DNA of 29,107 bases from a virus. Positions 3,405 to 29,107 of the stretch are shown in pieces; position 1 is the stretch's first letter, and every line of letters starts with the position of its first letter. The stretch is from positions 1 to 29,107 of the IMG/VR virus record IMGVR_UViG_3300031524_000063, one strand, 5' to 3'. A program made the translations under genes and the position numbers. The notes below the pieces were generated by a model. That model was given only the letters and a program-made list of their open reading frames with translations. It did no database searches and had not been told where the DNA came from.

Positions 3405-3617
3405 TTAGCTCCAGAGCTTCACGGTCTGAATCTGCGGGGCCTGGTCGCTCAGGTCCGGGAGCGTGATGGCGATGCCCGCTGGCAAGAGCGGACCTTCGTC
3501 GGCGAGACCGGGATTCGCTGCCAAGAGGGCCTCGGTGTAGCCCGCCGTCGCGCCATAGACCTTATAAGCGATCGCGTCGACCATGTCGTTCGCCTGGGTG
3601 GTGTACTGCTGGGTCAT
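3405..3617 (-). CDS. X: Tail protein X (P2 gpX, LysM-like)
   Basis: This 70-residue protein matches P2 gpX (67 residues), a small LysM-fold protein needed for tail completion. Typical features are the N-terminal DMVDAIAYKVYG segment, the LLAANPGLA motif and the LPAGIAITLPDL segment, as in LysM repeats. Its ATG overlaps the stop of U (ATGA), and its stop lies one base before the CTG start proposed for D. U-X-D is the conserved P2 order. Its end also carries the GGAG that probably serves D. Confidence 0.92.
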   Translation of the reverse strand: MTQQYTTQANDMVDAIAYKVYGATAGYTEALLAANPGLADEGPLLPAGIAITLPDLSDQAPQIQTVKLWS

Positions 3618-4507
3618 CCGTGATTCACGCCCCGTGCTGTGGTGGCGAGCAAGTTGCCCACAGTCTGGACGGTGCCTTGGCCGACCTGGACCGCGGCGCC
3701 GATCTGAGAGAGCGATCCGGCAAGGTCGGATCCGAAAAGCGTCCGGATCCCGGCCTGCCCGATGCCACTGGTCAGTAGGCGCGAAATGGTTCCGACCGGA
3801 TCATGGGCAATCCCGGTCTTCAGGCTCGAGACCGTCATCGAAACTTGCGCGAGGACGGTTGCCGCTGCGGTCGCATCTTTTTGGATCAGCTGCACCTGCT
3901 GAATCGCCTTGGTGAGCGTCGATGCCGCAACCTGGGGAGGAATCTTGGCGGCAGCGAGTGCGGGTGTCAGACTGCCCAGTTGCGAGGCTTTTACCGGGGG
4001 AACGACGCCCGATTTGGCGGTCGCGATGTCCGGCGGCGTAATCAATGTCGCACCCTGCTTGCCCAGGAGATTGCTCCAGGTCGATGAAACATAGCCGCGC
4101 GAGCCGGTGCTGCCATCGTCCGGGCCGTAGTAGCTGAGCCGCAACGTGAACTCGATCTTGAGCGGCGTTCCTTTGAACGTCATCGTCCGCTGTTCATCGG
4201 TGATCGCGAGCACACACCAGGGTCCCCAGTTCTCACCACGACCGGTTGTGAGCGTCTGCGGCTTCCCCTTTTGGGCGTAGGTGCGCAGAATATCCACCTG
4301 GTGGATCCCGCCCTGAAACGTAGGCAGGATCACGCCGCGCAGTTCGATTTCATCGCGGCCCACGCCGACGAATTGAAGCGAGGGCCGGTGCGCGATCCGG
4401 TTGAGTTCTGCCCAGCGGTATTCCACATTGCGGCGCAATTCCTGATACGCGGCAGTACCGATCGAGAACTGGAAGTTCCCGAGTTGCATCATGATGTCGG
4501 TGGCCAT
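3614..4507 (-). CDS. U: Tail protein U (P2 gpU) with C-terminal extension
   Basis: Residues 1-130 are the gpU family: the start MMQLGNFQFSIGTAAYQELR, then the W-AELNRI and GVILPTFQGG segments. P2 gpU (159 residues) is a tail completion protein. This copy is 297 residues. The extra C-terminal part (about 150-297) is helical, rich in A, T, Q and V, and is common in U proteins of non-enteric P2-like phages; its role is unknown. The gene starts on the stop of the tape measure gene (TGATG) and ends over the start of X (ATGA), so all three should be translated together. Confidence 0.9.
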   Translation of the reverse strand: MATDIMMQLGNFQFSIGTAAYQELRRNVEYRWAELNRIAHRPSLQFVGVGRDEIELRGVILPTFQGGIHQVDILRTYAQKGKPQTLTTGRGENWGPWCVLAITDEQRTMTFKGTPLKIEFTLRLSYYGPDDGSTGSRGYVSSTWSNLLGKQGATLITPPDIATAKSGVVPPVKASQLGSLTPALAAAKIPPQVAASTLTKAIQQVQLIQKDATAAATVLAQVSMTVSSLKTGIAHDPVGTISRLLTSGIGQAGIRTLFGSDLAGSLSQIGAAVQVGQGTVQTVGNLLATTARGVNHG

Positions 4508-26496: not shown

Positions 26497-28443
26497 TTAG
26501 CTCATCCACTTCGGCCGCGCCACACGGCTCTCTTCGCGCTGTTCGACAGTGCGCGCCGGGGCTTGCCCCGGGACTACCACCGGCGCCGCCGACTGCTGCC
26601 GCTGCTGCTCGAGCGCTTCCCAGGCCGCATCGCTTAGCCGCTGGCCACCGCACAATTCGTACATCGCCCGGTTGCCCACTGCGGTGTCCAGCGGCTCGTT
26701 GCGGCCGGTCTTATGCCACTCGACCGCGCCGGCCTCCGTGACGATCCGAGTCTCGGCTGTCAGCCCCTGGAAGTACGACTCGTCGTAAGCGCTGGGGTGA
26801 TGCGAGTAGCCCTTCGGAAACGGTTGATCGTCGAGCGGCTTGTCCTTCCCCAGCGAGTCATAGACGTTCTGCTTTGCGCAGTGTGTCCCGATCGTGACGA
26901 TCCGCAAACCGCCACGGGCCTTGGCCGCGTCGATCTGGGAGATGTTCTCGATGATCTTGAACGGATTGTGGCCGCCCTTGGTCGGTACCACTGTCCGATA
27001 CGAAGGCACCACCGCGCCGGCCGGGCCATATGCAGGCTGCACAAAACCCCGGCAAAACGAGTAGACCGTTTCGGCCATGTAACCGGAGTCCACACCGCAG
27101 GCCCAGATCGGCAGCGTGCCGCCGTCGGCGTGCGGCCAGTCCTTCATGATCAACTCCGCCAGGCGTTCCCACGGCTCCGGATCCGCTGGCGTGCAACGCA
27201 CCGGGCGCCCACCGGGACCCGGCCGTTCCGGCGCAATCACTTCATACCAGACCGACCAGTTCTCTCCGCCGGTCTTGCCCCAGGCTTTCACCTCGACCTC
27301 GAGCCGCGGCGGGTTCTCCTGAACGTCGACAAACGCAGTGAGGAAAGACGCGCCGTGCGGCACCTTGCCGTAGGCGTAATCCTCGCGACGGTCGTACAGC
27401 CGCTTCCAGTCCGGCGCCATGCCGGGCACATCCCAGACCTCGGCCAGACTCGTGTTCACGAACACCTTGAGACGCTCCGGATCGTCCTTGGCCTTGAGGA
27501 AATCGGAAACCAGTTCCCGCAAGGGTTTGAACTGCGAGTACAACTCACTGATCCAGAAGCCCGCCGCGCCGTTGAATGGCCGATCCGCACGCCACACACC
27601 ACGCTGAACGGCCGCCCAGCGCTGGACGTCGTTCCATATCGCACCGCAGTGCTCGCAGGCGTACGTCGCCGTGGCTGCGCGCTCTTTGACGTCCTCGATC
27701 TTCTTTGCGAACCGGACCTGTCGCCATACCAGGATCTGGTCTTGGCCACAGACAGGGCACGGCACCCAGAACTTGCGCTGGTCCGTCTCCGCGTAGGCTG
27801 CTGCGATTTGCGATTCGCGGGCAATGGTCGGCGAGCAGGTCTGAATTCGCTTGCGCCGGCCGCGGAATGTCGCCGTGCGCTTATTCGCCACATCGATCGG
27901 ATTGCCTTCTCCACCGGAAGACTTGGGATACTTGTCAACCTCATCGCAGAAGAGATAGCGGATCGCGTACGCCGCCAGGTTCGCCGGCGAGCCTGCCGCC
28001 GTCATGATCAGCGGACCGCCTGGGAAGTCCTTCGTGTCGATCGTCGTCGACGAGTTGCGCGACTTGGGATCACAGACCAGTCCGCGCAGCACCGTCATCT
28101 CGCGCAACGTCGATGCCAGCCGGAACTTGGAAAACTTGCCGACGTCCGAGTCGCGCGGCATCACGACCATGATCGGGTCCGGATCCCGCGCGATCACGTA
28201 AGTGATTCCGACCAGGATCGTGATCGTCTTCAACATCTGCGTGGCGGACATGATCACGATCTCGTTGATCGCCGGATCGCCGATCGCATTGATCGGTTCC
28301 AGCTGATACGCAGCCGGCCGGAAGCGTCCTTTGTTCGCGCCAGTGGTGACGATGAAGTTCTCTTTCGCCCACTCGCAGACGGTCTGGCGCGGCGGCGGCG
28401 CCCATAACAGCGAAGCCCTCTCGATCGACCTGTCTACCGTCAT
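26497..28443 (-). CDS. terL: Terminase large subunit (lambda gpA family)
   Basis: The product is 648 residues; lambda gpA is 641. It is the packaging motor ATPase and DNA-cutting nuclease. Visible features: a degenerate Walker A at 66-73 (SATQMLKT), Walker B with D167-E168 in YLFCDEVD, a coupling motif near QTCSPT (201-206), a four-Cys zinc-ribbon C229/C232/C263/C266 and the nuclease start with D373 in FVDVQEN. The zinc ribbon is common in GpA-type terminases. The ATG overlaps the small subunit stop (ATGA). Membership of the gpA group predicts cos-type cleavage, though this is not certain. Confidence 0.96.
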   Translation of the reverse strand: MTVDRSIERASLLWAPPPRQTVCEWAKENFIVTTGANKGRFRPAAYQLEPINAIGDPAINEIVIMSATQMLKTITILVGITYVIARDPDPIMVVMPRDSDVGKFSKFRLASTLREMTVLRGLVCDPKSRNSSTTIDTKDFPGGPLIMTAAGSPANLAAYAIRYLFCDEVDKYPKSSGGEGNPIDVANKRTATFRGRRKRIQTCSPTIARESQIAAAYAETDQRKFWVPCPVCGQDQILVWRQVRFAKKIEDVKERAATATYACEHCGAIWNDVQRWAAVQRGVWRADRPFNGAAGFWISELYSQFKPLRELVSDFLKAKDDPERLKVFVNTSLAEVWDVPGMAPDWKRLYDRREDYAYGKVPHGASFLTAFVDVQENPPRLEVEVKAWGKTGGENWSVWYEVIAPERPGPGGRPVRCTPADPEPWERLAELIMKDWPHADGGTLPIWACGVDSGYMAETVYSFCRGFVQPAYGPAGAVVPSYRTVVPTKGGHNPFKIIENISQIDAAKARGGLRIVTIGTHCAKQNVYDSLGKDKPLDDQPFPKGYSHHPSAYDESYFQGLTAETRIVTEAGAVEWHKTGRNEPLDTAVGNRAMYELCGGQRLSDAAWEALEQQRQQSAAPVVVPGQAPARTVEQREESRVARPKWMS

Positions 28444-29000
28444 TGGCCATTTCTGTACCGGGCGAGCTCGTTCAGGATCTCGTACACCTTGTCATCGATG
28501 AGCTGCTTGCAGTGAACCCGGTCGGAAGAGCACGCCAGGACATCGGCAAGTTCATCGCCCATCTGCATCAACCGCGACTTCGCGTTCAGCACCAGAGCGG
28601 CCCACGCAGCATCCACCTCATCCGCGCGGATCAGTGCGCCTTCCTTCTCGCGCAGCGCGACCTGGCGGAGCTTGAGCCGGACCGCCATGTCCCGCATCTC
28701 CAGGTCGAACTTGGTCAGACCGCCAAGTTTCGCTGGCCCGCCGCCGTCGGTATCCTCATCTGCTACCCGGCGAGCAGTCGGCGCCGGCGCGGGCTGGCGA
28801 ACCGGTTGTACCGGGGCAGGCGGATCCGGGACCGGCGACAATCGCCTGGAGCGCTGCAACGGATCCGCGTTGCGCTCCCAATCGATCCGGATCTGGTCGA
28901 TCGGCTTGCTCGGGTCGATCCGGCCCCGCTTGATGGCTTTGTCGACCGCCTGGCGGCTGACACCGAGCGATTTCGAGATCGAAACGGCGCTTAAACGCAT
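28440..29000 (-). CDS. terS: Terminase small subunit (Nu1-like)
   Basis: The product is 186 residues; lambda gpNu1 is 181. Residues 3-27 form a helix-turn-helix (SAVSISKSLGVSRQAVDKAI, then KRGRI), expected to bind the packaging site. A Pro-rich linker (55-75) leads to a helical half (LEMRDMAVRLKLRQVALREK, then VDAAWAALVLNAKSRLMQMG) for oligomerisation and contact with the large subunit. It overlaps the large subunit gene by 4 bases. Four TGCAAC repeats lie 19-57 bases upstream. No strong ribosome site precedes the ATG. Confidence 0.88.
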   Translation of the reverse strand: MRLSAVSISKSLGVSRQAVDKAIKRGRIDPSKPIDQIRIDWERNADPLQRSRRLSPVPDPPAPVQPVRQPAPAPTARRVADEDTDGGGPAKLGGLTKFDLEMRDMAVRLKLRQVALREKEGALIRADEVDAAWAALVLNAKSRLMQMGDELADVLACSSDRVHCKQLIDDKVYEILNELARYRNGQ

Positions 29001-29018
29001 GAAACTGATCGGATGGGG

Positions 29019-29057
29019 TGCAACCGCACATGCAACCCCTGCAACTCCCCCTGCAAC
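29019..29057. repeat. Four TGCAAC repeats, candidate packaging-site repeats
   Basis: TGCAAC occurs at 29019, 29031, 29040 and 29052 with start-to-start spacings of 12, 9 and 12 bases. They lie just upstream of the small terminase gene, where lambda carries cosB with its gpNu1-binding R repeats. Terminase or regulator binding is inferred. Confidence 0.55.
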
Positions 29058-29107
29058 TCCGGAATTTGACCCGTAGCTGGGCGTTTCCCGCGCGCTCCGG
29101 CACCGGC

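Follow-up and report, generated by a model that had tools for sequence, protein, structure and literature searches.

Background

How the small terminase subunit (TerS) recognizes viral DNA is presented as an unanswered question in the excerpt of a 2022 review consulted here, which judges it unlikely that several helix-turn-helix (HTH) units act at once (PMC9611059). In phage lambda, cosB (R3-I1-R2-R1) comprises three sites, with R2 inverted and an IHF site between R3 and R2 (PMC9026076). A 1994 title cited in the literature gives 47 ± 2 bp as the distance from a lambda R site to the cut. Phage N15 has one critical R, and the paper that describes it calls the 7-bp cosQ highly conserved (PMC4669245). 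Winged HTH units of BldC are found on 9-bp direct repeats, head to tail and in variable number (PMC5859096), and correlations between residues and bases across a whole family are described for LacI and MerR (PMC2978694, PMC5045206). These statements are drawn from excerpts of the papers cited.

The terminase genes of the window

The DNA analysed here, called the window, is an entire IMG/VR virus record of 29,107 bases (class linear), and its right edge is therefore the edge of the contig. The terminase genes and the codons of the putative recognition helix are as follows:

26497..28443, minus strand: terL, GpA-type large terminase (PF05876, PF20454, phrog_15)
28440..29000, minus strand: terS, small terminase subunit, 186 aa, with a putative N-terminal HTH (phrog_57, E 5.6e-17)
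28938..28958, minus strand: codons of the putative recognition helix SRQAVDK (residues 15-21), placed by alignments

A preliminary description of this DNA had assigned the terminase to the gpA/Nu1 group, and the large subunit bears this out, as TerL is GpA-type and matches PF05876 (E 3.8e-67) and PF20454 (E 1.1e-64), both past the curated cut-offs. The HTH profile matches of TerS are weak. HTH_11 is found at E 0.0046, under its cut-off, and the best solved-structure match of the TerS profile is lambda Cro, a weak one at E 0.017, in which the putative recognition helix aligns with that of Cro. The AF2 model of TerS (mean pLDDT 75.7, pTM 0.34 overall) has helices at 5-12 and 16-24, with pLDDT about 83-87. 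A fold search with this model gave nothing significant (best E 0.91), and its fold match with BldC-DNA entries, at E about 3, was not significant. In the phage collection the window TerS had no match at 1e-5, and the wider comparison thus rests on IMG/VR contigs and on more distant TerS. The TerL alignment was made without L037 (which has a stop within the given coordinates), L023 and L021.

The repeat array and its relatives

Just to the right of terS are four copies of TGCAAC on the plus strand, with a spacing of 12-9-12. As terS is on the minus strand, the word read along terS is GTTGCA, present four times, and the array extends from 57 to 19 bp ahead of the ATG:

29052..29057, minus strand: repeat 1, GTTGCA, equivalent to R3 and putatively TerS-binding; starts at bp 48 from the predicted left end
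29040..29045, minus strand: repeat 2, GTTGCA; bp 60 from the predicted left end
29031..29036, minus strand: repeat 3, GTTGCA; bp 69 from the predicted left end
29019..29024, minus strand: repeat 4, GTTGCA, closest to the terS ATG; bp 81 from the predicted left end

Could such a cluster arise by chance? TGCAAC is the only hexamer in the whole 29,107-base window with at least four copies in 45 bp. None of 300 dinucleotide shuffles of the whole window gave a four-copy cluster of any hexamer in 45 bp, and when the last 107 bases were shuffled 20,000 times, four TGCAAC never appeared together. The four copies, their spacing and the opinion that they are unlikely to be due to chance, all put forward in the preliminary description, are thereby confirmed. 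Three-copy hexamer clusters (45 bp) number seven in the window, against a shuffle mean of 1.98; two of these derive from the TGCAAC copies.

Scanning with a profile built on the TerS clade of the window yielded 17 loci, several of them near-identical. Relatives with the same terminase and no repeats, which the preliminary description had named as the case that would count against it, were looked for among these loci, and an array was present ahead of terS in all 17: GTTGCA in four to five copies in 11 loci, and GTTTCC in three copies in six. The GTTGCA type has four copies at 12-9-12 in five loci, four copies at 12-9-9 followed by GTCGCA in four, and five copies at 12-9-9-12 in two. At the GTTTCC loci the helix reads SHTIVNR or THTAVNK, against SRQAVDK in the window. 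L002 is a near twin of the window, with a TerS at 100% identity. The best match in the genome collection, L156, is from an Acidobacteria MAG; its TerL has 41% identity and its cos is laid out in the same way, which offers a weak hint of an acidobacterial host.

A natural mosaic is seen in L028, which is the same contig as L012 and L277 (terS at 3417-3986). Between -60 and +84 relative to the terS start, its identity is 92-100% to L022 versus 32-58% to the window. The cosN block (-107 to -60) is 81% identical to the window versus 74.5% to L022, and terS past base 250 is 82-87% identical to the window versus 66-77% to L022. L028 thus combines the HTH and array of one lineage with the cosN and C-terminal part of terS of another, the array and helix having been swapped as a single unit.

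Arrays ahead of other terS genes

An HTH-type TerS was recognized in 325 loci, and the 303 with enough upstream DNA were reduced to 102 representatives. In the 150 bp ahead of the HTH codons, one hexamer is present in at least three copies in 36 of 102 representatives and in at least four copies in 14 of 102; in the other 66 no hexamer reaches three copies in these 150 bp. The corresponding figures are 10/98 and 2/98 for a control further upstream, 17/102 and 3/102 for a control within the gene, and 2.5% and 0.02% for a shuffle control. In two of the control windows, located 370-520 bp ahead of the HTH codons, a hexamer is present in five and six copies.

A stricter filter left 27 arrays near the ATG, and in 26 of these the word starts with G(G)T on the terS strand. 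The words vary from clade to clade, and include GTTGCA, GTTTCC, GTTGTC, GTGGTC, GTTGAC, GTTAAC, GTGAAC, GGTAAC and GGTTCA. Arrays are found in 12 of 29 representatives with an upstream GGGTCCT and in 15 of 73 without. L042 and L073 (PBb001) carry the words TGCAAC and TGAAAC in the direction opposite to that of the other arrays, and the L042 word is the reverse complement of the window's word. At the loci Lily, CRP-406, Pyei1 and ZRG1 no such array was recognized; KLER1-1 has GGTTGAA words inside inverted repeats, and RcOceanus has GGCGAAG three times. The L263 protein (AcaML1 Gp23) is annotated as hypothetical yet is TerS-like, with a GGTTTCC array and an exact cosQ upstream; the AcaML1 record gives the name gpNu1 to a gene other than Gp23.

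Distance from cosQ and the predicted left virion end

An exact GGGTCCT occurs 110-300 bp ahead of the HTH codons in 141 of the 325 loci. A GT word starts 74-77 bp after it in 125 of these 141, whereas equally wide control windows placed in between gave 25 of 168; the offset was free among four positions (74-77), and the control windows were given equal freedom. Among 21 representatives, in which words, copy numbers and spacings differ, the distance from the cosQ start to the first repeat is 75.05 bp (sd 0.84), whereas that from the first repeat to the HTH codons ranges from 62 to 195 bp (sd 34.9). As the first repeat is fixed to cosQ and not to terS, the array belongs with packaging, and by implication with the cut, and not with terS transcription. 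In a less strictly thinned list, 34 of 38 representatives have a GT word at +74 to +77, the four without it being L155, L042, L421 and L049. The same distance is 83 in lambda. L006 and L011, of the window's clade, have the exact GGGTCCT, and L002 has GGGACCT, with one mismatch to cosQ, exactly 76 bp ahead of the first repeat, where cosQ would be expected.

Where, then, might the left end of the virion DNA be? Two elements bear on this question:

29093..29104, minus strand: predicted 12-base left cohesive end GGTGCCGGAGCG (cosN); related contigs and records begin GGT at the homologous base
29074..29076, minus strand: CTA within CCAGCTACGG; position bp 29, counted from the predicted left end

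It is common for contigs of related phages to end here, and ten of 33 hand-listed contig starts begin with GGT. CTA is found 24-28 bp after the start in nine of these ten (counted by eye in L140 and L148, computed in the other seven) and at 25 in lambda and N15; the tenth contig, L147, seems to sit inside a gene. GGTG is likewise the start of the records of Presto and Lily. A repeat word is at bp 47 in the GGT contigs L030, L209 and L233 (in L233 also at bp 36), at bp 48 in the Presto record, at bp 51 in N15, at bp 54 in lambda and, by prediction, at bp 48 in the window. From the GGT starts of related contigs, together with the CTA and repeat offsets, the left virion end is predicted at 29104, three bases inside the contig edge. 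CGCGGG follows GGTGCCGGAGCG in the window and also follows the 12-base end of lambda. The cosQ of the window is predicted to lie beyond the window edge, about 29 bp out from the predicted end. The cut had earlier been placed to the right of the array, at or beyond the edge: this agrees with a cosQ beyond the edge, as seen in L002, but the predicted left end is just inside.

Several contig ends deserve mention in their own right. L030 was considered as a complete cos-to-cos genome and dropped, as its other end is without GGGTCCT. L140, L146, L148 and L150, which belong to another terminase group, share the start GGTCGTTCG, which is probably a virion end. At the terS end of L258 (the Haddon record) there is an inverted stretch, absent there in the relative Turba, that is possibly a cohesive-end assembly artefact. 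In L002 a gene with an HNH domain (2041-2844; PF01844, E 9.9e-11) is immediately ahead of cos; relatives such as L006 carry other DNA at this position, and sequence divergence begins at the cos block.

Recognition helix and repeat word

The helices can be written as S-x1-x2-x3-V-x5-K and the words as GGTnnN, where N is base 6. Residue x1 predicts base 6 in 42 of 45 non-redundant TerS. His is found with C (15/15), Leu with T (10/10), Lys with A (10/10), Ala or Pro with A (2/2) and Arg with A (5/8); all three exceptions belong to the clade of the window, where Arg is with C (3/3), while elsewhere Arg is always with A (5/5). GGTAAC words are shifted by one base in this table, since the Methylobacterium GGTAAC rows misfit the register when unshifted. 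Among the residue-base pairs tested, x1 and base 6 rank highest in mutual information (1.49 bits, z 11.6, 28 clusters). A partial Mantel test of word against helix, given the rest of the protein, yields r 0.32 (p 2e-4), and word against the rest of TerS, given the helix, yields r 0.39. Tree-aware independent pairs, taken from a tree built on the portion of TerS that follows the HTH, show no disagreement: His with C in four to none and one tie, Leu with T in three to none, and Lys, Arg, Ala or Pro with A in two to none and one tie, numbers too few for significance (p 0.125-0.5).

In Cro, Lys32 faces the GG of its half-site. Genetic work on lambda assigns the C terminus of the helix to the 5' side of R3 (PMC9026076, in excerpt); the direction here is the same, x1 going with the 3' part of the word.

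Interpretation of the array

The four GTTGCA repeats very probably represent the cosB part, with predicted TerS binding, of a lambda-type cos site that would anchor TerL for the cutting of cosN. What the sequences themselves show is a conserved array whose first repeat keeps its distance from cosQ and whose word changes jointly with the recognition helix. The N-terminal HTH of each TerS would read one repeat, and several such HTHs would most likely line up head to tail along the array, all facing one way; BldC on its direct repeats offers a precedent. TerS bound to the array would anchor TerL at a set distance from cosN, and TerL would nick cosN about 47 bp upstream of the array (predicted bp 1 = 29104), leaving a 12-base 5' end. 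TerS binding, the exact nick and the simultaneous occupation of several repeats are what one may infer here. Several findings weigh against this reading: Arg goes with C in the window's clade, the independent pairs are few, the word also follows the rest of TerS, 66 of 102 representatives have no three-copy hexamer while the control within the gene has some, the words of L042 and L073 run the other way, the contig edge is three bases away from the predicted end, and the far end of L030 has no cosQ. The spacings of 9 and 12 add up to 21, i.e. two helical turns, which fits a location of the sites on one face of the DNA, but other arrays have spacings of 7, 8, 10, 13 and 14.

Might the array serve some other purpose? 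A role as operator, by which TerS or another late regulator would govern terS and late transcription with no part in packaging, is improbable. It would suit the location 57 to 19 bp ahead of the terS ATG, and HTH proteins on direct repeats may be regulators, e.g. BldC (PMC5859096, in excerpt), but across the 21 representatives it is cosQ, and not the HTH codons, to which the first repeat holds a fixed distance (sd 0.84 against 34.9 bp). Even less can be said for a coding origin, where terS would start further upstream and the 12-9-12 spacing, in multiples of three, would represent a short peptide repeat. The terS frame is indeed open up to the window edge (28440..29105), and spacings in the GTTGCA clade are all 9 or 12. 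In L021, however, the frame ahead of the ATG is open for just 45 bp, which puts an in-frame stop within the array; the GTTTCC clade has spacings that include 10 and 9 and an in-frame TGA just ahead of the ATG, and spacings of 7, 8, 13 and 14 occur in other clades.

Repeats formed by local slippage and kept without function would account for the variation in copy number, from three to five across relatives. Yet the word is conserved while the letters between vary, word and helix change jointly, and the first repeat holds its position relative to cosQ; slippage is a most improbable source of such an array.

The cosB reading can be extended to a wider proposal, which is put forward tentatively and with slightly less than an even chance of being correct. 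Many phages whose terminases are GpA-type or related would share a third kind of cosB, consisting of a one-way tandem array with its first unit at a fixed distance from the cut and read by several HTHs of TerS oligomers at the same time. A simple code in a Cro-like recognition helix would set packaging specificity: at base 6, His would specify C, Leu T, and Lys or Arg A, while a near-invariant Lys would face the near-invariant GGT. This code would have been rewired repeatedly, array and helix being swapped together.

Since arrays and the helices that match them occur in nature in many versions, they provide ready-made specificity swaps with which the question of TerS-DNA recognition becomes directly testable. 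The cosQ ruler also offers a means, by sequence only, to locate virion ends and predicted TerS-binding sites in uncultured phages.

Comparison with known systems

As in lambda with its cosB and gpNu1, the array is upstream of terS, the predicted cosQ and cosN are on its far side, and TerS carries a putative N-terminal HTH. The core also starts with GT, lambda having GTTTCC at bp 54 and 156 and GGAAAC at bp 114. Between the start of cosQ and bp 1 there are 30 bp in lambda (GGGTCCT in the record) and a predicted 29 in the window. In a lambda-type cos the TerS-binding repeats are expected ahead of terS, some 47-54 bp in from the left end, and the first GTTGCA, at predicted bp 48, falls within this range. 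Unlike in lambda, the window's four sites are all on one strand, and the gaps between words are 3-6 bp, which leaves no room for an IHF site between repeats. The inverted R2 and the R3-R2 IHF site that characterize the 'complex' cosB of lambda are thus not features of this array. The earlier suggestion of cosB-like repeats is upheld by the fixed distance from cosQ and by a word that changes with the TerS helix. The layout is not that of lambda, as all repeats have the same direction and are close together.

In the titles, abstract starts and excerpts of open-licence PMC papers that were consulted, tandem cosB arrays are not described for these phages. BldC, unlike TerS, is a transcription regulator and has no terminase domain, and the LacI and MerR code studies concern transcription factors, not packaging enzymes. 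N15 cosB has R3 at a similar distance from bp 1 (GTTGTT at bp 51) and, like the window, no IHF gap. Its single R differs from the four to five tandem repeats of the GTTGCA clade, and the window, with four copies, departs from a 'simple' cosB. In position, and very probably in working, the tandem direct-repeat array is like lambda cosB, but it has neither the inverted R2 and IHF gap of lambda nor the single site of N15: it may be classed as a lambda-type cos with a new, third cosB layout.
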